Below, piece after piece: positions 7,137-14,920 of a stretch of 64,000 nucleotides of DNA. The first letter of the stretch is position 1. Each line of letters starts with the position of its first letter. The DNA is from Alphaproteobacteria bacterium (GTDB lineage: Bacteria; Pseudomonadota; Alphaproteobacteria; Micavibrionales; Micavibrionaceae). Below the pieces are notes generated by a model, which was not told the origin of the DNA, ran no database searches, and was given only the letters and a program-made list of their open reading frames with translations. The translations under genes and the position numbers were made by a program. The DNA lies in NCBI GenBank assembly GCA_017302165.1, contig JAFLCW010000001.1:868001-932000 (forward strand), in the 5' to 3' direction.

Positions 7137-7922
7137 CTATCCCGTGGGTAATACAGGGGTGCCATCAAAGCTTTGGATCAAGGATCCACAGATAAGATAC
7201 CATCCATCGACCAGCACAAAAAACACAATCTTGAACGGCAGAGAGATGGTGACCGGCGGCAACATCATCATCCCCATCGACATCAGGATAGACGCCGTCA
7301 CCATATCAATAATCAAAAACGGCAAAAAGAGCATAAAGCCGATTTCAAACGCCCGTTTGAGTTCAGAAATCATGAAGGCTGGGACGATCACTTGAATGGG
7401 GGTATCGATCACCTGTTCAGGCGGCTCTGTTTTGCTTAAATCCATGAATAATTGCAAATCCTGTTCACGGACATGTTTTAACATGAATTCCTTGAACGGC
7501 GTGATGCCGCGTTCGAACGCGGTCACTTCATCAATTTCTTCGTTGATCATCGGTTTGAGGGCGTTGTTATACGCAGACTCAAACGTAGGCGCCATGATGA
7601 AAAAAGTCAGAAACATCGCCAAAGACACCATGACCGTGTTCGGCGGTGTCTGTTGAATACCGATGGCCGTTCTTAAAAAAGAGAGTACGACCACAATACG
7701 CGTGAACGAGGTCATCATAATCAGGATAGAGGGCGCGAGCGACAAAACCGTGAGTAGGAGTACCAGTTGAATCACACGCCCGGAAACAGTACCACTTCCT
7801 TCTTCCCCGCCGCCCAGATCAACGGTAAAGGCCTGCGCTAGCGCAGGTGAACTGCCCAGAATCAGACCTGCCAGAATCGTAAGCCCGGCCAGCAGACATA
7901 ATTTGGGGTTAAACAGCGGCAT
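7137..7922 (-). CDS. fliP: FliP, flagellar export gate protein
   Basis: The 261-residue protein has a signal peptide (LAGLTILAGLILGSSPALAQ) and the FliP hallmarks: MMTSFTRIVVVLSFLR, a Q-x-PPN segment, a central periplasmic region and two C-terminal spans. FliP forms the export gate ring with FliQ and FliR. The ATG at 7922 lies 14 bp inside fliO, which implies translational coupling; the longer frame to 8018 would overlap fliO far more. fliP is separated from fliQ-fliR, which are on the opposite strand about 2.3 kb away. Confidence 0.93.
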   Translation of the reverse strand: MPLFNPKLCLLAGLTILAGLILGSSPALAQAFTVDLGGGEEGSGTVSGRVIQLVLLLTVLSLAPSILIMMTSFTRIVVVLSFLRTAIGIQQTPPNTVMVSLAMFLTFFIMAPTFESAYNNALKPMINEEIDEVTAFERGITPFKEFMLKHVREQDLQLFMDLSKTEPPEQVIDTPIQVIVPAFMISELKRAFEIGFMLFLPFLIIDMVTASILMSMGMMMLPPVTISLPFKIVFFVLVDGWYLICGSLIQSFDGTPVLPTG

Positions 7923-8205
7923 GTTCCTGACCCTTTTCGTGACCCTTAATATTGGTTTCCACCACAGTTTCGCCTGAGGATGATAAAATAACAAGATGTT
8001 GAACATCGTCCCGTTCAATCATCATCAACTTTCTGCGAGAGTCGAGGGGAAGGACTTCCAGGATTTTTAAGCGCCGCTTGCCCCCGGCGAGCGTGGACAT
8101 ACCTTGCCCCATGCCCAGACGTTTCATGACATAAGCCAGCCCCCCCATGAGAGAGAGAACAAACACAAGAGCCACGACAAATTTCAGATAATCATAAGCT
8201 TCCAT
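7909..8205 (-). CDS. fliO: FliO, flagellar export assembly factor
   Basis: The 98-residue protein has one N-terminal membrane span (FVVALVFVLSLMGGLAYV) followed by a basic loop and the short beta domain RRLKILEVLPLDSRRKLMMIERDD, broken here by no gap, as in FliO. FliO helps assemble the FliP ring. It precedes and overlaps fliP, the usual order. The stop of the upstream small gene lies 6 bp away. The short C-terminal tail is polar. Confidence 0.85.
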   Translation of the reverse strand: MEAYDYLKFVVALVFVLSLMGGLAYVMKRLGMGQGMSTLAGGKRRLKILEVLPLDSRRKLMMIERDDVQHLVILSSSGETVVETNIKGHEKGQEHAAV

Positions 8206-8211
8206 CGGTAT

Positions 8212-8478
8212 TTACTTTTTTTGTTGGATTAAATGGGCTTTTAACTCTTCAAGACTTTTCCCCAGATCCTCAAGATGCCCGATCATGTTGGCGATCAGGG
8301 GTTGCATTTCCATCGCCTCTGCAGGGGGGAGTTTAATTGTGTCATTACATACTTGGCTGACCTTGGCATCAAGCCCGATCAAGTTCACATTTTGACCCTG
8401 ACGCACCTGATGTTGAGCGTCTATGATAAAATCAGTGAGAGCCCTCATTCTGTCCTGAAGAGAATAAAGATCATTCAT
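8212..8478 (-). CDS. small helical protein, possible flagellar chaperone
   Basis: From the ATG at 8478 the product has 88 residues and is almost entirely predicted helix, with no membrane segment or cysteine motif beyond one Cys. I do not recognise a named family. Size, helicity and position between an FlhB-like gene and fliO resemble export chaperones of the FliT/FlgN type, but that comparison rests on context and general form. The start is 4 bp after the upstream stop, which supports ATG 8478 over the longer frame to 8517. Confidence 0.5.
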   Translation of the reverse strand: MNDLYSLQDRMRALTDFIIDAQHQVRQGQNVNLIGLDAKVSQVCNDTIKLPPAEAMEMQPLIANMIGHLEDLGKSLEELKAHLIQQKK

Positions 8479-8482
8479 GGTG

Positions 8483-8872
8483 TCAGGAGGTTCCTTTGTC
8501 TTCCTTCTTCTTATCATCAGTCAAAAGCGCATCAAAGGGATTTGGTTGCCCATTGGCGCGATACACATAAGACATGATTTCGGCCACGGCTGAAAAAGCT
8601 TCGGGCGGGATGGGGCTATCGATTTCAATGGCCGCCAGCATTTCGGCCAGCGCGCTATCTTCCCGGATACGGATGTCATTGTCATAAGCCAGTTGCAGGA
8701 TTTGCTCGGCAATTTTTCCCCGTCCGGCCGCTACCACCTGAGGCACCTTGCGTTCCAGCGTGCGGTCTTTAAGCGCGACAGCGGTCTGGCGCTTTGATTT
8801 TTCCTTTATATTCAAAGGCTTTAGCGGATCATCCGCCGCAGGGTTCAGGGGGTCGGGGTCATGGGTGGTCAT
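8483..8872 (-). CDS. FlhB C-terminal-domain-like protein (FhlB type)
   Basis: The 129-residue protein matches the cytoplasmic C-terminal domain of FlhB: VPQVVAAGRGKIAEQILQLA, then IRIREDSALAEMLAA, and IPPEAFSAVAEIMSYVYR, which parallels IPPEHYKAVAEVISYVFR of the full FlhB at 11288. There are no membrane spans and the self-cleaving NPTH motif is absent. Such stand-alone FlhB2/FhlB proteins occur in many flagellar clusters and can partly replace the FlhB domain. ATG 8872 is used; a GTG at 8878 is two codons earlier. Its start region overlaps the sigma-54-type promoter of the divergent flgB operon. Confidence 0.8.
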   Translation of the reverse strand: MTTHDPDPLNPAADDPLKPLNIKEKSKRQTAVALKDRTLERKVPQVVAAGRGKIAEQILQLAYDNDIRIREDSALAEMLAAIEIDSPIPPEAFSAVAEIMSYVYRANGQPNPFDALLTDDKKKEDKGTS

Positions 8873-8888
8873 TGGCACGGTTTCTGCA
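8872..8888 (+). promoter_or_regulatory. sigma-54-type promoter of the flgB operon
   Basis: TTGGCACG, four bases and CTGCA give the -24/-12 pattern: GG at 8874-8875 and GC at 8886-8887 with exactly 10 bases between. It points at flgB (start 8930), leaving a leader of roughly 30 bases. Sigma-54 promoters before rod and hook genes are known in alphaproteobacteria such as Caulobacter. The element covers the start codon of the divergent FlhB-like gene. Confidence 0.7.
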
Positions 8889-8929
8889 AATTTTGATCCA
8901 GAAGGTTCGCCTATTTTAAGGGGTATATG

Positions 8930-9340
8930 ATGACATTACAAAACATTCCTTTGATGAAAGCCATGAGCGCGAAGATGAATTATCTCGAAAAGCGTCAGGG
9001 CGTCCTATCGGAAAATATTGCGAATGCCGATACACCGAATTACCGCGCACGTGATCTTACCAAGGTGGATTTTGGCAGTGTCCTGAAAGATGTCGTGAAA
9101 ACAGACCGCGTGCGTCTGGCCACCACCCAGCCCGGCCATATGCCGCCGCCGGGGGAGATTGAAACCGCCAAGGATGCCAAACAAAAGATCACCTACGAAG
9201 TGGCACCTGCCGGGAATGCCGTGATTATCGAAGAGCAGATGGTCAAAGCCAACGAAACCAACATGGAATACACGTTGTTGACGAATTTAATGCGCAAGCA
9301 ATCTGGCATGATCCGCACAGCCTTAGGCCGCGGTCAGTAA
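8930..9340 (+). CDS. flgB: FlgB, flagellar proximal rod protein
   Basis: The 136-residue protein has the rod/hook family N-terminal motif VLSENIANADTPNYRARDL and a C-terminal heptad region (NETNMEYTLLTNLMRKQ). FlgB forms part of the rod that crosses the periplasm and is exported by the flagellar system, not by Sec. ATG 8930 is preferred since AAGGGG ends 6 bases before it; ATG 8927 is directly adjacent. It is the first gene of the plus-strand run to cckA. Confidence 0.93.
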   Translation: MTLQNIPLMKAMSAKMNYLEKRQGVLSENIANADTPNYRARDLTKVDFGSVLKDVVKTDRVRLATTQPGHMPPPGEIETAKDAKQKITYEVAPAGNAVIIEEQMVKANETNMEYTLLTNLMRKQSGMIRTALGRGQ

Positions 9341-9364: not shown

Positions 9365-9790
9365 ATGATTATGGCGGAAGATAGTATATTCGGGGCAATG
9401 ACAACATCGGCATACGGAATGCGGGCGCAAGGTGAACGCACCCGGGTCATATCTGAAAACATCGCCAATGCGAACACGGCCGCGAATACCCCGGACAGCG
9501 AGCCGTATAACCGTAAAATCATTACGTTTAAAAATGAAATGGATCGCCAACAAGGCCAGCGTCTGGTCAAGGTGGATGATATCCGTGATGACAAGGAAAA
9601 AGATTTCCCCTTAAAATATATGCCAGACCATCCCGGGGCGAACGCCGAAGGATATGTCAAAATGCCGAACGTCAATAGCTTGATTGAGCTGACCGATATG
9701 CGGGAAGCACAACGTTCCTATGAAGCCAATCTGGGGATGATGGAACAAAGCCGAACCATGGCCCAACGAACGATTGATATGTTGAGATAA
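9365..9790 (+). CDS. flgC: FlgC, flagellar proximal rod protein
   Basis: The 141-residue product has the rod motif VISENIANANTAANTPDSEP near its N-terminus, the central YMPDHPGANAEGYVKMPNVN segment typical of FlgC, and a C-terminal DMREAQRSYEANL helix. It joins FlgB, FlgF and FlgG in the rod. A GGGAG site sits just before ATG 9365. It lies 24 bp after flgB and 38 bp before fliE, the classical order. Confidence 0.94.
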   Translation: MIMAEDSIFGAMTTSAYGMRAQGERTRVISENIANANTAANTPDSEPYNRKIITFKNEMDRQQGQRLVKVDDIRDDKEKDFPLKYMPDHPGANAEGYVKMPNVNSLIELTDMREAQRSYEANLGMMEQSRTMAQRTIDMLR

Positions 9791-9828: not shown

Positions 9829-10140
9829 ATGGTTGATAAAATTGCCAATCCCGCCGTTGCCGCCAGTGCGTATGCCAACACGGCCAAAGGTGGATCGTTG
9901 CCCGGCATCGGACAGGAACAGGACGCTTCGTTCGGGGATGTCTTAAAAAACATGGCCGTTTCGACCATCCAGACCCTTAGAGCCGGGGAAACGGCGTCAG
10001 CTCGTGCGGTGACGGGTTCGGCCAGTCTGCCGGAAGTTGTCCAAGCCGTGAATGCCGCCGAATTGACCCTTCAAACCGTGGTGGCCGTGCGTGACCGGTT
10101 GATCGGTGCGTATCAGGAAATCATGCGGATGCCTATTTAA
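9829..10140 (+). CDS. fliE: FliE, MS ring-rod junction protein
   Basis: The 103-residue protein has the FliE C-terminal signature AVNAAELTLQTVVAVRDRLIGAYQEIMRM, here quoted only in part as VRDRLIGAYQEIMRM. FliE joins the MS ring to the rod and is the first exported substrate. AAAGGA precedes ATG 9829 at good distance. It continues the flgB-flgC order. Confidence 0.93.
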   Translation: MVDKIANPAVAASAYANTAKGGSLPGIGQEQDASFGDVLKNMAVSTIQTLRAGETASARAVTGSASLPEVVQAVNAAELTLQTVVAVRDRLIGAYQEIMRMPI

Positions 10141-10225: not shown

Positions 10226-10492
10226 ATGAACCAGACAGAAATTATCGAACTGGCACGCGAGGCCGTGATACTCACGTTACAGATTGGTGCACCGGTGATG
10301 ATTGTGGGGCTGATTGTCGGTGTTTTGATTGCATTGGTTCAAGCTCTGACTCAGATTCAGGAAATGACCTTAGTGTTCGTTCCCAAAATTATTGCCATTT
10401 TTGCCGCCATCTTTTTTCTGTTTCCGGCCTTTGTATCCGTCATGACCGCGTATATGCAAAGCCTTGCAGAACGCATCATCGGCATGGGATAG
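10226..10492 (+). CDS. fliQ: FliQ, flagellar export gate protein
   Basis: The 88-residue protein has two membrane spans, about residues 17-40 and 50-72, with the conserved ALTQIQEMTLVFVPKI segment between them. FliQ joins FliP and FliR in the export gate. It starts a fliQ-fliR-flhB triplet with 15-bp and 3-bp spacing. Length is normal for the family. Confidence 0.94.
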   Translation: MNQTEIIELAREAVILTLQIGAPVMIVGLIVGVLIALVQALTQIQEMTLVFVPKIIAIFAAIFFLFPAFVSVMTAYMQSLAERIIGMG

Positions 10493-10507: not shown

Positions 10508-11284
10508 ATGCTCACGCTCGAAACATTCCTGAGCGATATGGTCTTCGGGTTTTTCCTGATTTTCGTTCGGCTGGGCACGGCATTGATGATTATGCCGGGT
10601 CTTGGCGATTCTTTTGTTCCGCAAAATATACGTTTATTCATGGCACTCGGGTTGTCCTTTGTGATGTTACCCTTGACCTTGCCATTTGTGCCATCGCCCG
10701 TGCCGGGTATGAATATGATGTTATCCCTTATTTTCATGGAATTCGTCATTGGCTTATTGATCGGAACCGTAGCGCGTATATTAATGACCGCACTGGACAC
10801 GGCGGGGATGATTATTGCCAGTACATCAGGGTTGGCGAACGCGCAGGTGTTTAACCCGTCCATGGCCGCTCAAGGGTCTGTGGTGGGGGCGTTTTTATCG
10901 GTGACAGGGGTGCTGTTCATCTTTGCCACTAATCTTCACCACATGTTGATTTATGGATTGGTGGAAAGTTACCAGATGTTTCCTATTGGCGGCATCCCGG
11001 ATTCAGGAAGCATGGCTGACCTGATGGCGCGCACTGTATCGGTCAGTTTTATGACCGGGCTTCAGATGGCCATTCCCTTTATTGTTCTGACATTGATGGT
11101 GAATATTCTGATGGGGGTGCTCTCGCGCCTGATGCCCCAGCTTCAGGTTTTCATTCTGGTACTCCCGGTTCAGATTATCCTGACCTTGCTGGTTCTTTCC
11201 CTCACGCTATCATCCATGTATTTATTCTGGGCAACCCAGTTTCAAGACGGCATCACGTTTTTTTATCAATCGGCGGGAAAATAA
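10508..11284 (+). CDS. fliR: FliR, flagellar export gate protein
   Basis: The 258-residue membrane protein has about six spans and FliR features such as FVRLGTALMIMPGLGDSFVP near the N-terminus and the segment EFVIGLLIGTVARI. FliR completes the FliP-FliQ-FliR gate, and FlhB wraps around it. The stop is 3 bp before flhB, which implies coupled translation. Confidence 0.93.
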   Translation: MLTLETFLSDMVFGFFLIFVRLGTALMIMPGLGDSFVPQNIRLFMALGLSFVMLPLTLPFVPSPVPGMNMMLSLIFMEFVIGLLIGTVARILMTALDTAGMIIASTSGLANAQVFNPSMAAQGSVVGAFLSVTGVLFIFATNLHHMLIYGLVESYQMFPIGGIPDSGSMADLMARTVSVSFMTGLQMAIPFIVLTLMVNILMGVLSRLMPQLQVFILVLPVQIILTLLVLSLTLSSMYLFWATQFQDGITFFYQSAGK

Positions 11285-11287
11285 CCC

Positions 11288-12370
11288 ATGGCCGAAAGTG
11301 ATAACGAAGCCGACGATTCCCAGAAAACCGAAGACCCCACACCCAAAAAACTGGAAGATGCACGAAATAAGGGACAGGTGGCTCTGTCCCGTGAGATTAA
11401 TAACTGGGTGATCCTGTTTATGGGGACTCTGGTCATTTTGGCCGTGGGCCCCGGCATGATGATGTCATTGGCGAAATATCTTCAAACCTATATTGAACAG
11501 GCACATGCGCTACCGCCTCCGCCAGGGGGGATGGGTGTTGTTGTCGCTGACTCGTTTATCGAGATTTTAAAGATTCTGGCTGTGCCGTTTATACTCATGA
11601 TGGTGGCGGCTTTTTTGGGAACGTTTGTTCAAATTGGCGCGCTGTTTTCATTTGAGACCATCAAGCCGGATATCAGCAAGATATCGCTGATCCAGGGGTT
11701 CACGCGGCTTTTTTCCGGACGGGCGATTGTTGAGTTCATTAAGGGGATATTGAAACTGGTGGTAATTGGGGTGGTGGGGGCGATGTTGCTCTTCCCATTT
11801 TTAGGCAATCTGGATCACATGGTGGGGCTTCCTTTACGTGAGACCCTGTTTGAAATTTCGGACATGACACGCCGGCTCATGATTGGGGTACTGGTGGCAC
11901 TCTTGATCATTGCCGTTCTGGATTTGGTGTATCAACGTACCGAGCATTACAAAAAAATGCGGATGACCAAGCAGGAGTTAAAGGACGAATATAAACAATC
12001 CGAAGGTGATCCGCATGTAAAGGCAAAGTTGCGCCAGTTACGGCAGGAAAAAGCCCGCGCCCGGATGATGCAGGCTGTTCCAACCGCCGATGTCATTATC
12101 ACGAACCCAACCCATTTTTCGATTGCCTTGAAATACGATCCAGATGAAATGGCCGCCCCGACACTGGTCGCCAAGGGGGTTGATGATCTGGCGCTACGTA
12201 TTCGGGAAGTCGCCAAGGAACATGATGTGCCGTTGGTGCAAAACCCCCCGTTGGCGCGTGTTCTTTTCGATAAGGTTGAGGTGGATGAGGCGATCCCGCC
12301 TGAACATTACAAGGCGGTGGCCGAGGTCATCTCCTATGTCTTCCGTTTAAAGGGAAAACTTAAGGTTTAG
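11288..12370 (+). CDS. flhB: FlhB, export substrate-specificity switch
   Basis: The 360-residue protein opens with the typical QKTEDPTPKKLEDARNKGQV segment, has four membrane spans and a cytoplasmic domain with the self-cleaving motif NPTH (IITNPTHFSIALKYD). Cleavage between Asn and Pro switches export from rod/hook to filament subunits. The C-terminal domain closely parallels the separate FlhB-like protein at 8483-8872. The gene is of normal length and ends 51 bp before cckA. Confidence 0.96.
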   Translation: MAESDNEADDSQKTEDPTPKKLEDARNKGQVALSREINNWVILFMGTLVILAVGPGMMMSLAKYLQTYIEQAHALPPPPGGMGVVVADSFIEILKILAVPFILMMVAAFLGTFVQIGALFSFETIKPDISKISLIQGFTRLFSGRAIVEFIKGILKLVVIGVVGAMLLFPFLGNLDHMVGLPLRETLFEISDMTRRLMIGVLVALLIIAVLDLVYQRTEHYKKMRMTKQELKDEYKQSEGDPHVKAKLRQLRQEKARARMMQAVPTADVIITNPTHFSIALKYDPDEMAAPTLVAKGVDDLALRIREVAKEHDVPLVQNPPLARVLFDKVEVDEAIPPEHYKAVAEVISYVFRLKGKLKV

Positions 12371-12421: not shown

Positions 12422-14920
12422 ATGCCGTTAGATCACAGCGATTTTATCAAAAAATACCATACGCCGCCCGATCAGGCGGCAATCACGCATAAAAGAATCC
12501 GTAAAATTCTTATCTCCACACTGATCCTCATTGTCTATGTCGTGGGGTGCGTCATTCTGGCGGCGGTGCTGGGGATTGATCAATCGACTATGCTCGCGGC
12601 GGCGTTACTTTTTTTGTTGGCGGCTTTTGTTGGCTTTACGGTTCAGGATTTTCTGGGACGTCAGGCCGATAAAGAAAAAGAACGCCTTGTCATTCGTGAG
12701 GTACTAGAGGGATCGAGAGGGGCACGCTTGATCACCGATGGCGCGGATAATACGTTTTTCGCTAATCAGCGTTTTTTTGAATTATGCGGTAAAAAATCGC
12801 TCCCCGGGCTTCCGGCTTTGGCGGCTCTGTTCGAAGATAATGCCGAAGCGTTTAATCACTTCCGGCTTTTGTCTGAACAGGCACATCGGGGGTTAACGGA
12901 TTCCATTGAACTTCGTACAGGTCACGAAGAACGGGAACGCTGGTTCCTGGTCACGGCACAACCTATCGCCGGATGGGCGGGATATGTGCATTGGCGGGTG
13001 GATGATATTACCCGCCAGCGTGATTTGGATCGGTCGGTGCGCGAGGAGCGGGAAAAACTGATTGATTTCACGGATAATGCCCCCGTTGGATTTTATTCGA
13101 CCGATGAAACAGGCCGGTTTGTATTTGTGAATGCAACGCTGGCGCGATGGCTGGGGACGGATATTCAAACATTACTATCAGATGGACGTCTTCATACCTA
13201 TATGGTGACACCCCCGATGGGGGCACTTCCCCATGATATTACAGAGAAAGGCGGCGTTCGGCAGGTGGCCGAAATCACGATGAAGGGGCCCTATGGCACC
13301 AGCTTTCAGGCGCAGATTTCGCAGGCCGTTCACCAAGAAGCCGAAGGTCTGGTGCGTACCCGCGGCGTGGTACACGACTTGACGTCTGAGCGCGAAATGC
13401 GCCGCGCGCTCGAAGCGTCAGAAGACAGGTTCCAGCGTTTCTTTGAAGAAGCCCCGCTTGGGATTGTGCTGATTGATTCAGCCGGGAAGATTAAAGATTG
13501 TAATGTCGAACTGGCGGAGATGCTGGGTCAAACGATTGAGCAGATCGAGGGAAAATCCTTCCGCGACATCATGTCCGAAGATGACCGCGATACGGTCTTC
13601 ATGGCGATGAGCCGGATCGGACAGGGGGAGCAGATGTCGGCACCCATGGAAATTACCCTTCGAGGACACAAGGATGTATCTGTGCAGATGCATGCCCGCC
13701 GTTTCAAAGGAAGCGATCATATTGTGCTTCACTTTATCGACCTGACGGATCAAAAACTGCTCGAGGCGCAATTTATCCAGTCACAAAAAATGCAGGCCGT
13801 GGGGCAACTGGCGGGTGGTGTGGCACATGACTTTAACAATTTGCTGACAGCTATTATCGGTTTTTGTGATCTGTTATTGTTGAGGCACAAGCCAGGAGAT
13901 CCTTCCTTTGGCGATATCATGCAGGTGAAACAGAATTCCAATCGTGCCGCCAATCTGGTGCGTCAATTATTGGCGTTCTCCCGGCAACAGACTTTGCGCC
14001 CGAAGGTTCAGGATATGACTGATATTCTGGTCGAAGTCTCCCATCTAATCCGCCGGTTGATTGGTGCGAATATCGAGCTCGATCTCGTGCATGGACAATC
14101 GCTGGGTCTGGTCAAGGTCGATGTAGGGCAAATGGAACAGGTGCTGGTTAATCTGGCTGTGAATGCCCGTGATGCGATTGGGGACAAAGGCGGTAAACTG
14201 ACGATTGCAACGTCTAATTTTGAAAATGATAAACCCCTGAAACGTGCCAGTGAATCTATGCCCCCGGGCGCATGGGTCAAGATTGAATTTTCAGATACCG
14301 GATGCGGCATCCCCGAAGAGAATATGGTTCGCATTTTTGAACCGTTTTTCACGACCAAGGATGTGGGGCAGGGCACCGGGTTGGGGCTGGCCACTGTCTT
14401 TGGGATCATCCGCCAGACTGGGGGCTATGTTCATGTCGAAAGCACGGTTAATGTCGGGACAACATTTTCGATTTATCTCCCCCGTCTTTCGGAAAGCGAA
14501 ATCAAGGAAAGTGCCGAAGACCGTAAACAGGAAGACGAACCACAGGGTGACTTGACCGGCACCGCACGTATCTTGCTGGTTGAAGATGAAGATGCTGTGC
14601 GTACGTTCTCGACCCGGGCGCTCACCAACAAAGGATACGAAGTGCTGTCTGCCGAAAGTGGTGAGGCAGGGCTTTCCCTGATGGAACAAAGCGAAGGTAA
14701 AAAAATAGATCTTCTGATTACCGATGTCATGATGCCCGGTATGGATGGCCCCACGATGGCCAAACAAATCCGGGCGCGTTATCCGGATTTAAAAATTATT
14801 TTTATTTCAGGGTATACCGAAGACAAACTGAAAGACCATATGGGGGATAATATTTTCTTCCTGCCGAAGCCCTTTACACTCAAGCAATTAGCCGCGAAGG
14901 TCAAAGAGGTCATGGGCTAG
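12422..14920 (+). CDS. cckA: CckA-type hybrid histidine kinase
   Basis: The 832-residue protein has two N-terminal membrane spans (about 29-51 and 55-75), PAS-type sensory regions (about 95-440), a HisKA domain with the phospho-histidine H469 in GGVAHDFNNLL, a HATPase domain (NLAVNARDAI, DTGCGIPEENM, GTGLGLATVFGI) and a C-terminal receiver with D768 (ITDVMMPGMDG). This layout and the H-box match CckA, which sends phosphate through ChpT to CtrA and CpdR and controls the cell cycle and motility in alphaproteobacteria. Placement after flhB is one I recall from Rhodospirillales. ctrA and chpT are not in the window. I see no clear ribosome site before ATG 12422. Confidence 0.9.
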   Translation: MPLDHSDFIKKYHTPPDQAAITHKRIRKILISTLILIVYVVGCVILAAVLGIDQSTMLAAALLFLLAAFVGFTVQDFLGRQADKEKERLVIREVLEGSRGARLITDGADNTFFANQRFFELCGKKSLPGLPALAALFEDNAEAFNHFRLLSEQAHRGLTDSIELRTGHEERERWFLVTAQPIAGWAGYVHWRVDDITRQRDLDRSVREEREKLIDFTDNAPVGFYSTDETGRFVFVNATLARWLGTDIQTLLSDGRLHTYMVTPPMGALPHDITEKGGVRQVAEITMKGPYGTSFQAQISQAVHQEAEGLVRTRGVVHDLTSEREMRRALEASEDRFQRFFEEAPLGIVLIDSAGKIKDCNVELAEMLGQTIEQIEGKSFRDIMSEDDRDTVFMAMSRIGQGEQMSAPMEITLRGHKDVSVQMHARRFKGSDHIVLHFIDLTDQKLLEAQFIQSQKMQAVGQLAGGVAHDFNNLLTAIIGFCDLLLLRHKPGDPSFGDIMQVKQNSNRAANLVRQLLAFSRQQTLRPKVQDMTDILVEVSHLIRRLIGANIELDLVHGQSLGLVKVDVGQMEQVLVNLAVNARDAIGDKGGKLTIATSNFENDKPLKRASESMPPGAWVKIEFSDTGCGIPEENMVRIFEPFFTTKDVGQGTGLGLATVFGIIRQTGGYVHVESTVNVGTTFSIYLPRLSESEIKESAEDRKQEDEPQGDLTGTARILLVEDEDAVRTFSTRALTNKGYEVLSAESGEAGLSLMEQSEGKKIDLLITDVMMPGMDGPTMAKQIRARYPDLKIIFISGYTEDKLKDHMGDNIFFLPKPFTLKQLAAKVKEVMG

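Follow-up and report, generated by a model that had tools for sequence, protein, structure and literature searches.

Gene arrangement at the flgB locus

The analysed window, a stretch of 64,000 bp from the genome of an alphaproteobacterium of the Micavibrionaceae, contains two divergent sets of flagellar genes (Table 1). On the minus strand flhX, a reading frame of 101 amino acids, fliO and fliP are tightly packed, and flgB heads the genes on the opposite strand. The first-pass annotation had described the gene divergent to flgB as FlhB-like, which is appropriate insofar as its product matches the end of the FlhB profile, but flhX is no full FlhB, and a full-length flhB is located separately after fliR. 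Against the TIGR00789 family ('FlhB-like') flhX scored 71.5 bits, under the cut-off of 117.35. The reading frame between flhX and fliO matched nothing in Pfam or NCBIfam at E 0.001. As flgB begins with ATGAC in most relatives, its start may be 8930 instead of 8927. Within flgB, codon 48 (approximately 9068-9073) is a strongly constrained synonymous position (GAT 0.92 vs 0.56 expected). A recA gene, named from the sequence by eye, is situated near the CckA-like kinase.

The first-pass annotation had made its reading of the locus dependent on an rpoN gene, and one is present (PF04552, E 8e-65, C1:410859-411335). FliX is encoded as well (PF10768, 133.4 bits vs a cut-off of 25). For a FlbD-like sigma-54 activator, whose gene clusters with fliG and fliF, NF050807 was the best family, at 709.7 bits somewhat below the cut-off of 750.

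Table 1. Features at the flgB locus and at the flgF promoter of the same genome
Feature	Position	Strand	Basis and remarks
fliP (longest reading frame; true start probably further in)	7137..8018	-	PF00813
fliO	7909..8205	-	TIGR03500, E 3e-11, 43.2 bits vs cut-off 55.25
101-aa reading frame, function unknown	8212..8517	-	open reading frame; 35-base overlap with the flhX end
flhX, 129 aa	8483..8872	-	C-terminal FlhB part only, PF01312 positions 261-335, E 2e-15
constrained codons 49-56 of flhX	8705..8728	.	codon constraint; holds dyad GGCAATTTTTCCC at 8708-8720
A/T-rich constrained tract, flhX codons 18-27	8792..8821	.	codon constraint; between dyad and promoter
flhX probable ATG start, touching the -24 box	8870..8872	-	sequence and relatives
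sigma-54 -24/-12 promoter of flgB (predicted)	8873..8888	+	sequence; exact TGGCACGNNNNNTGCW match; kept in 49/56 relatives
flhX alternative in-frame GTG start, inside the -24 box	8876..8878	-	sequence and relatives
weak sigma-70-like candidate promoter for flhX	8913..8941	-	TTGTAA, 17, TAAAAT; overlaps the flgB start
flgB (start 8927 or 8930)	8927..9340	+	PF00460; orthologues in 56/58 genomes searched
flgC-like rod gene	9365..9790	+	PF06429 and PF00460; name from position
fliE	9829..10140	+	PF02049
fliQ	10226..10492	+	PF01313
fliR	10508..11284	+	PF01311
flhB, full length	11288..12370	+	PF01312, E 7.5e-128
CckA-like hybrid kinase, directly after flhB	12422-14920		profile match
flgF/fliLM divergent promoter	L095:15598-15882 = C1:865598-865882		sigma-54 site 47 bp before flgF

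The sigma-54 site in front of flgB

On the plus strand, TGGCACGGTTTCTGCA comprises TGGCACG and, at the correct spacing, NTGCA. The standard distance between the -24 GG and the -12 GC (TGGCACG-N4-TTGCW type) is present, and the single departure is that TTGC begins with C in place of T. Relative to the first possible ATG of flgB, the site is 54 bases upstream. Sigma-54 transcripts usually start about 12 bases past the C of the GC; applying this rule, we take the flgB transcript to begin at approximately 8899.

The string itself is no rarity: the 2.0 Mb genome has four exact copies vs 1.9 expected in random sequence of equal base composition, which would leave room for a chance string and a different promoter for flgB. 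Yet the same random model expects only 0.00014 exact sites on a single strand of 300 bp, the stretch before flgB, and the site is conserved at 49 of 56 FlgB loci; a chance match is thus very improbable, and the evidence is the position before flgB together with conservation. The near-perfect element described in the first-pass annotation is real, with no mismatch between TGGCACGGTTTCTGCA and TGGCACGNNNNNTGCW, and tied to flgB. We infer that it is used in vivo. The related pattern TGGCACNNNNNTTGCW with up to two mismatches showed no enrichment in the window (35 found vs 35.2 expected). Two of the other three exact sites in the genome are within reading frames; the third, TGGCACGGGACTTGCA at C1:274482-274497 (L002:1501-1516), is a perfect sigma-54 site 37 bp before a reading frame of 189 amino acids with unknown function, which is divergent from a response-regulator-like reading frame.

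Conservation of the site and its overlap with flhX

The promoter was said in the first-pass annotation to cover the ATG/GTG of the divergent gene, and this is correct to the base: the ATG (8872-8870) adjoins the first T of TGGCAC, and the GTG (8878-8876) is inside the -24 box. Conservation was studied in a discovery set of 58 genomes, of which 56 had FlgB, with an upstream range of 300 bp and a site score of at least 11, a threshold of our own choice on a matrix of our own making. A site before flgB was present at 49 of the 56 FlgB loci, 45 of them with a recognisable flhX. Overlap was defined as any in-frame ATG, GTG or TTG start of flhX within -4 to +5 relative to the site's first base; 36 of the 45 loci had such a start. 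Among the families (f1 to f7, labelled from the 58-genome search) overlap was found in 32 of 35 loci of the own family, in all four of f7 and in none of the remaining six. The codon equivalent to 8876-8878 was the sole start within this range in 9 of the 36 overlapping loci.

A search by flhX alone covered 80 of 172 confirmed loci. Rows with a site below 11 (L204-L206), rows with no flgB in range (L136 and L207) and 31 duplicates among L128-L203 were left out; among the matches listed, this left 44 unique new loci with flgB and a site, and all 44 showed the overlap, four of them with the in-box codon as the sole start. Outside the order, 26 loci (L212-L237) were collected, from which five with no flgB in range, four with non-adjacent genes and eight with no site were dropped. 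None of the nine loci with flgB next to flhX and a sigma-54 site showed the overlap, thus the divergent pair with its sigma-54 promoter appears to be older than the overlap. In eight of these nine, TTGC begins with its canonical T.

The site before flgB was missing in seven of the 56 relatives, L090, L092 and L093 of family f3 and L078, L083, L085 and L087 of f5. Loss of rpoN was considered as the cause and ruled out, because all seven have the gene; the upstream sequence of L085 comprised only 112 bp. Conversely, genome G057 had a sigma-54 site before flgB but no rpoN match. Further conserved strings, among them a TTTAC-N6-GTTAAC stretch, are present before flgB in the f3 regions.

A possible ribosome binding site on the flhX strand

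Read on the flhX strand, TGGCAYGNTTCCTGCA becomes TGCAGGAANCRTGCCA, that is AGGA followed by a start codon at or just past the box. The -12 box and the spacer (TCCTGCA) yield the AGGA, while the -24 box abuts the flhX start or is the start itself. At positions 10-13, TCCT was present in 19 of 35 flgB promoters of the own family vs none of 26 flgF promoters (Fisher p 2e-6, shared descent ignored). It also went along with the location of the start codon: among the matches listed, TCCT was present in 48 of the 67 loci whose start is at -4 to 0 vs one of 13 with only an in-box start (p 2e-5, shared descent ignored). The distance from AGGA to the start is approximately 8-12 bases for starts at -4 to 0 and approximately 4 for in-box starts. 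TGGCAT instead of TGGCAC, a change that converts the in-box codon from GTG to ATG, was found in 10 of 13 in-box-only loci vs 17 of 67 others among the matches listed (p 7e-4, shared descent ignored). Since few evolutionary events underlie the overlap in the 80 loci, these Fisher p values treat the loci as more independent than they are. The genome studied here has TTTCTGCA, with AGAA rather than AGGA on the flhX strand; the Shine-Dalgarno argument therefore rests on the relatives, and this genome belongs to the weaker cases. In the relatives, ribosomes presumably use the AGGA.

All this could also be the by-product of a compact genome, with an ordinary sigma-54 promoter for flgB, incidental AGGA and start codons, and two operons lacking any regulatory link. 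We hold this quite possible, albeit short of probable. The genomes are small (approximately 1.3-3.2 Mb), few evolutionary events are behind the overlap, and the C at position 12 occurs in flgF promoters of the own family too (9 of 26, the canonical T in 2 of 26), so this C is partly a lineage habit. According to the accessible part of the E. coli study, sigma-54 bound within genes formed inactive complexes and overlapped the gene with no detectable effect, no roadblock being apparent (PMC4591121). Against mere compactness speak the restriction of TCCT to flgB promoters and its dependence on the start position, and the geometry of the locus, in which any flhX promoter must face or overlap the sigma-54 promoter.

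Constrained codons in flhX and a putative FlbD site

When only synonymous codons were compared in 35 genomes, codons 49-56 and 20-25 of flhX were unusually constant. In 80 reading frames, windows of eight codons starting at codons 18-21 and 50-51 reached 0.67-0.69, with the stretches 18-27 and 50-58 at 0.68-0.69, and the maximum over 200 codon shuffles of these reading frames was 0.55. A third constrained window at codon 119 is explained by the overlap with the next reading frame and acts as positive control. The stretch of codons 49-56 holds a dyad with its centre approximately 185 bp ahead of the expected flgB transcript start.

The 13-base dyad pattern, GGNAANNNTTNCC, was derived by visual inspection of flhX and of 12 sequences upstream of flgF. 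A first enhancer model of 24 bases was discarded, as it had no partner near flgF, and so was the core CTCGGCAA, with matches within 200 bp upstream of flgF in just two regions. Exact dyads were present in 25 of 45 flhX regions (shuffles: mean 0.27, maximum 3) and in 18 of 30 flgF upstream regions (mean 0.31, maximum 3), including 8 of the 18 flgF regions that were uninspected when the pattern was chosen (shuffles 0.17, maximum 2). The flgF coding controls had no exact dyad in 18 and a one-mismatch dyad in 8 of 18. The distance to the sigma-54 site was 165-166 bp in 14 of 31 cases at flgB and 109-113 bp in 17 of 23 dyads at flgF. Helical phasing of these distances (mean vector 0.52, distinct distances, 10.5 bp) was calculated and not used. 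A further exact dyad was noticed 52 bp before fliX, between fliX and flgI (L095:11073-11247), a region with a weaker sigma-54-like site on its flgI side.

The constraint on codons 49-56 may alternatively reflect a coding or RNA feature of flhX and no activator site at all. This stretch encodes the most conserved peptide, AAGRGKIAEQ, and the dyad is frequent across the genome, with 67 exact matches vs 52 for a reversed-pattern control. However, constancy was measured against codons for the same amino acid, and before flgF, where the DNA is non-coding, the dyad appears again, spaced at a fixed distance from the sigma-54 site; we thus consider a coding or RNA feature unlikely. Since the dyad recurs approximately 110 bp before the flgF sigma-54 site, an enhancer for FlbD is probable, and we infer the assignment from the need of sigma-54 for an activator and from FlbD being the flagellar one. 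Binding of FlbD to the dyad is suggested by this co-occurrence and by work on Caulobacter. The activator site that the first-pass annotation proposed to look for upstream has therewith a probable representative, encoded in flhX codons.

The flgF promoter of the same genome served as comparison. A match to flgF was found in 47 genomes; 30 were fetched, of which 26 of the own family entered the promoter comparison, and all 30 had a sigma-54 site before flgF. Like the flgB region, the flgF/fliLM region of this genome combines a sigma-54 site, a dyad (one mismatch) about 111 bp upstream and a divergent early gene, fliL. Unlike at flgB, the intergenic region is long (approximately 280 bp), fliL is not overlapped, TCCT is absent and an IHF-like site is present. 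In Caulobacter-type FlbD/FliX promoters, an IHF site is situated between enhancer and promoter. With up to one mismatch, an IHF-like site was present in 20 of 30 flgF regions (shuffles 3.9, maximum 9), in many relatives about 30 bp ahead of the sigma-54 site. From its sequence, the flgF region looks like a complete Caulobacter-like promoter opposite fliL. In the A/T-rich tract of flhX, the IHF consensus with up to one mismatch was not enriched (1 of 80, shuffles 3.7); with two mismatches it occurred in 52 of 80 (shuffles 27, maximum 36). The tract is perhaps a bending or IHF-like site, a weak assignment.

Search for a promoter of flhX and for CtrA sites

In an anchored profile of 80 loci, no conserved -35/-10 promoter for flhX was visible on the minus strand, and the intergenic stretch had no conserved element except the sigma-54 site. 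The candidate at 8913-8941 has 9 of 12 matches, and the window scan found one such promoter vs 0.4 expected. Sigma-70-like matches were present in 17 of 80 relatives vs 8.3 in shuffles (SD 2.8, maximum 17), and in 7 on the plus strand. The candidate is too weak to name. A second sigma-54 site at 8885-8900 on the minus strand, with two mismatches, was rejected after the anchored profile of the 80 loci gave no support.

The nearest known system is flgBp/fliOp of C. crescentus, where the rod operon (flgB and following genes) and the fliO operon are likewise back to back. These divergent promoters are reported to be 144 bp apart and to be served by a common CtrA site, through which CtrA activates the fliO-side promoter and represses flgBp (PMC6180460). 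Most rod genes of C. crescentus need RpoN and FlbD (PMC6180460, PMC7064773). CtrA might set the order here in the same way: the gene pair is identical, and a CckA-like kinase is encoded in the window. Yet no CtrA-like site (TTAA-N7-TTAA with up to one mismatch) was found between 8245 and 11555, and beside flgB in 80 relatives such sites were not enriched (11 vs 18.7 in shuffles, none exact). Together with the sigma-54 site as sole conserved intergenic element, this makes control by CtrA improbable. The locus further differs from C. crescentus by the extra flhX at the head of the fliO side and by the overlap of the sigma-54 promoter with the flhX start.

Opposed operons and the order of expression

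Classes of transcription determine the order in which the flagellum is assembled. To our knowledge, early and late operons that are neighbours and share few dozen bases have been little studied outside Caulobacter and Rhodobacter. For the present locus the site, its overlap and conservation, the codon constraint, the shared dyad, rpoN, FliX and the FlbD-like gene are observed in the sequence. We consider it likely that a Caulobacter-type sigma-54/FlbD rod promoter has been fused into the translation start of flhX and faces the putative promoter of flhX itself. The RpoN-dependent promoter would drive the rod operon flgBC-fliE(-fliQR-flhB), with activation from the FlbD site, approximately 185 bp ahead of where transcription begins. 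On this model flgB and the divergent operon flhX-orf-fliO-fliP were once separated by a spacer, which collapsed in the Micavibrio lineage. The promoter would thereby double as translation start of flhX, the -12 box and spacer acting as Shine-Dalgarno sequence and the -24 box abutting or supplying the start codon, with the FlbD site and the A/T-rich tract encoded within flhX codons. A complete sigma-54 control region, with core site, probable enhancer and A/T-rich tract, would then be contained in the first 170 bases of another gene.

From the usual footprint, sigma-54 polymerase presumably covers 8863-8905 or thereabouts at the flgB promoter. The transcript of flhX cannot begin to the left of its start codon, thus its promoter overlaps or faces the sigma-54 promoter, and local mutual exclusion is expected between the export operon, which is early, and the rod operon, which is later. 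The polymerase of each operon would cross the promoter of the other. In an early phase FlbD would be held inactive and flhX-fliOP would be readable; later, active FlbD would reach the sigma-54 polymerase by looping, and transcription would pass to the rod operon. An order control by opposed promoters is geometrically plausible; the idea that mutual exclusion determines which operon is expressed first is speculative. Most far-reaching, and in our view doubtful, is the notion that the 16-bp promoter and the ribosome binding site and start of flhX form a dual-purpose element under two-strand selection in the whole family, and that with the FlbD enhancer in the codons it would act as a one-way switch, export first and rod once FlbD is active. 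The interpretation in the first-pass annotation is partly supported, by rpoN, the conserved site and the probable upstream activator site. Its proposal that activation of one side could limit the other found no support, and no flhX promoter was convincingly located. Rod against export genes is no clean split either, since the sigma-54 operon seems to carry fliQ, fliR and flhB. No terminator or promoter was found between fliE and fliQ.

A very short divergent control region at flgB is also known from the fla2 system of R. sphaeroides, where flgB2p and fliI2p are divergent CtrA promoters with 47 bp between the transcript starts (PMC6180460). Unlike here, these are CtrA and sigma-70 type promoters, and involvement of RpoN or FlbD is not reported (PMC6180460). 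E. coli likewise has conserved sigma-54 sites within genes or antisense to them, and some drive a neighbouring gene. They have long leaders, and an overlap with a translation start is not noted in the accessible part of that study (PMC4591121), whereas the present site has a short leader and is merged with the opposite start. The same part states that sigma-54 can repress where its site overlaps another promoter (PMC4591121). In the open-access literature, as far as its text was accessible, we found no account of a sigma-54 promoter that is merged with a Shine-Dalgarno sequence on the other strand, nor of the flgB/flhX locus in Micavibrio.

Dozens of genomes offer natural variation in the start codon, which is either an ATG left of the box or an ATG or GTG within it, and in the presence of AGGA and of the overlap. 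With this variation one could test cleanly to what extent a sigma-54 promoter can be adapted to translation on the opposite strand, and whether opposed promoters time gene order. The start type changed approximately six times on the tree of the 80 overlapping loci, among the matches listed. In one pair of loci at short distance, L201 and L081, the left ATG was lost and TGGCAC was changed to TGGCAT.
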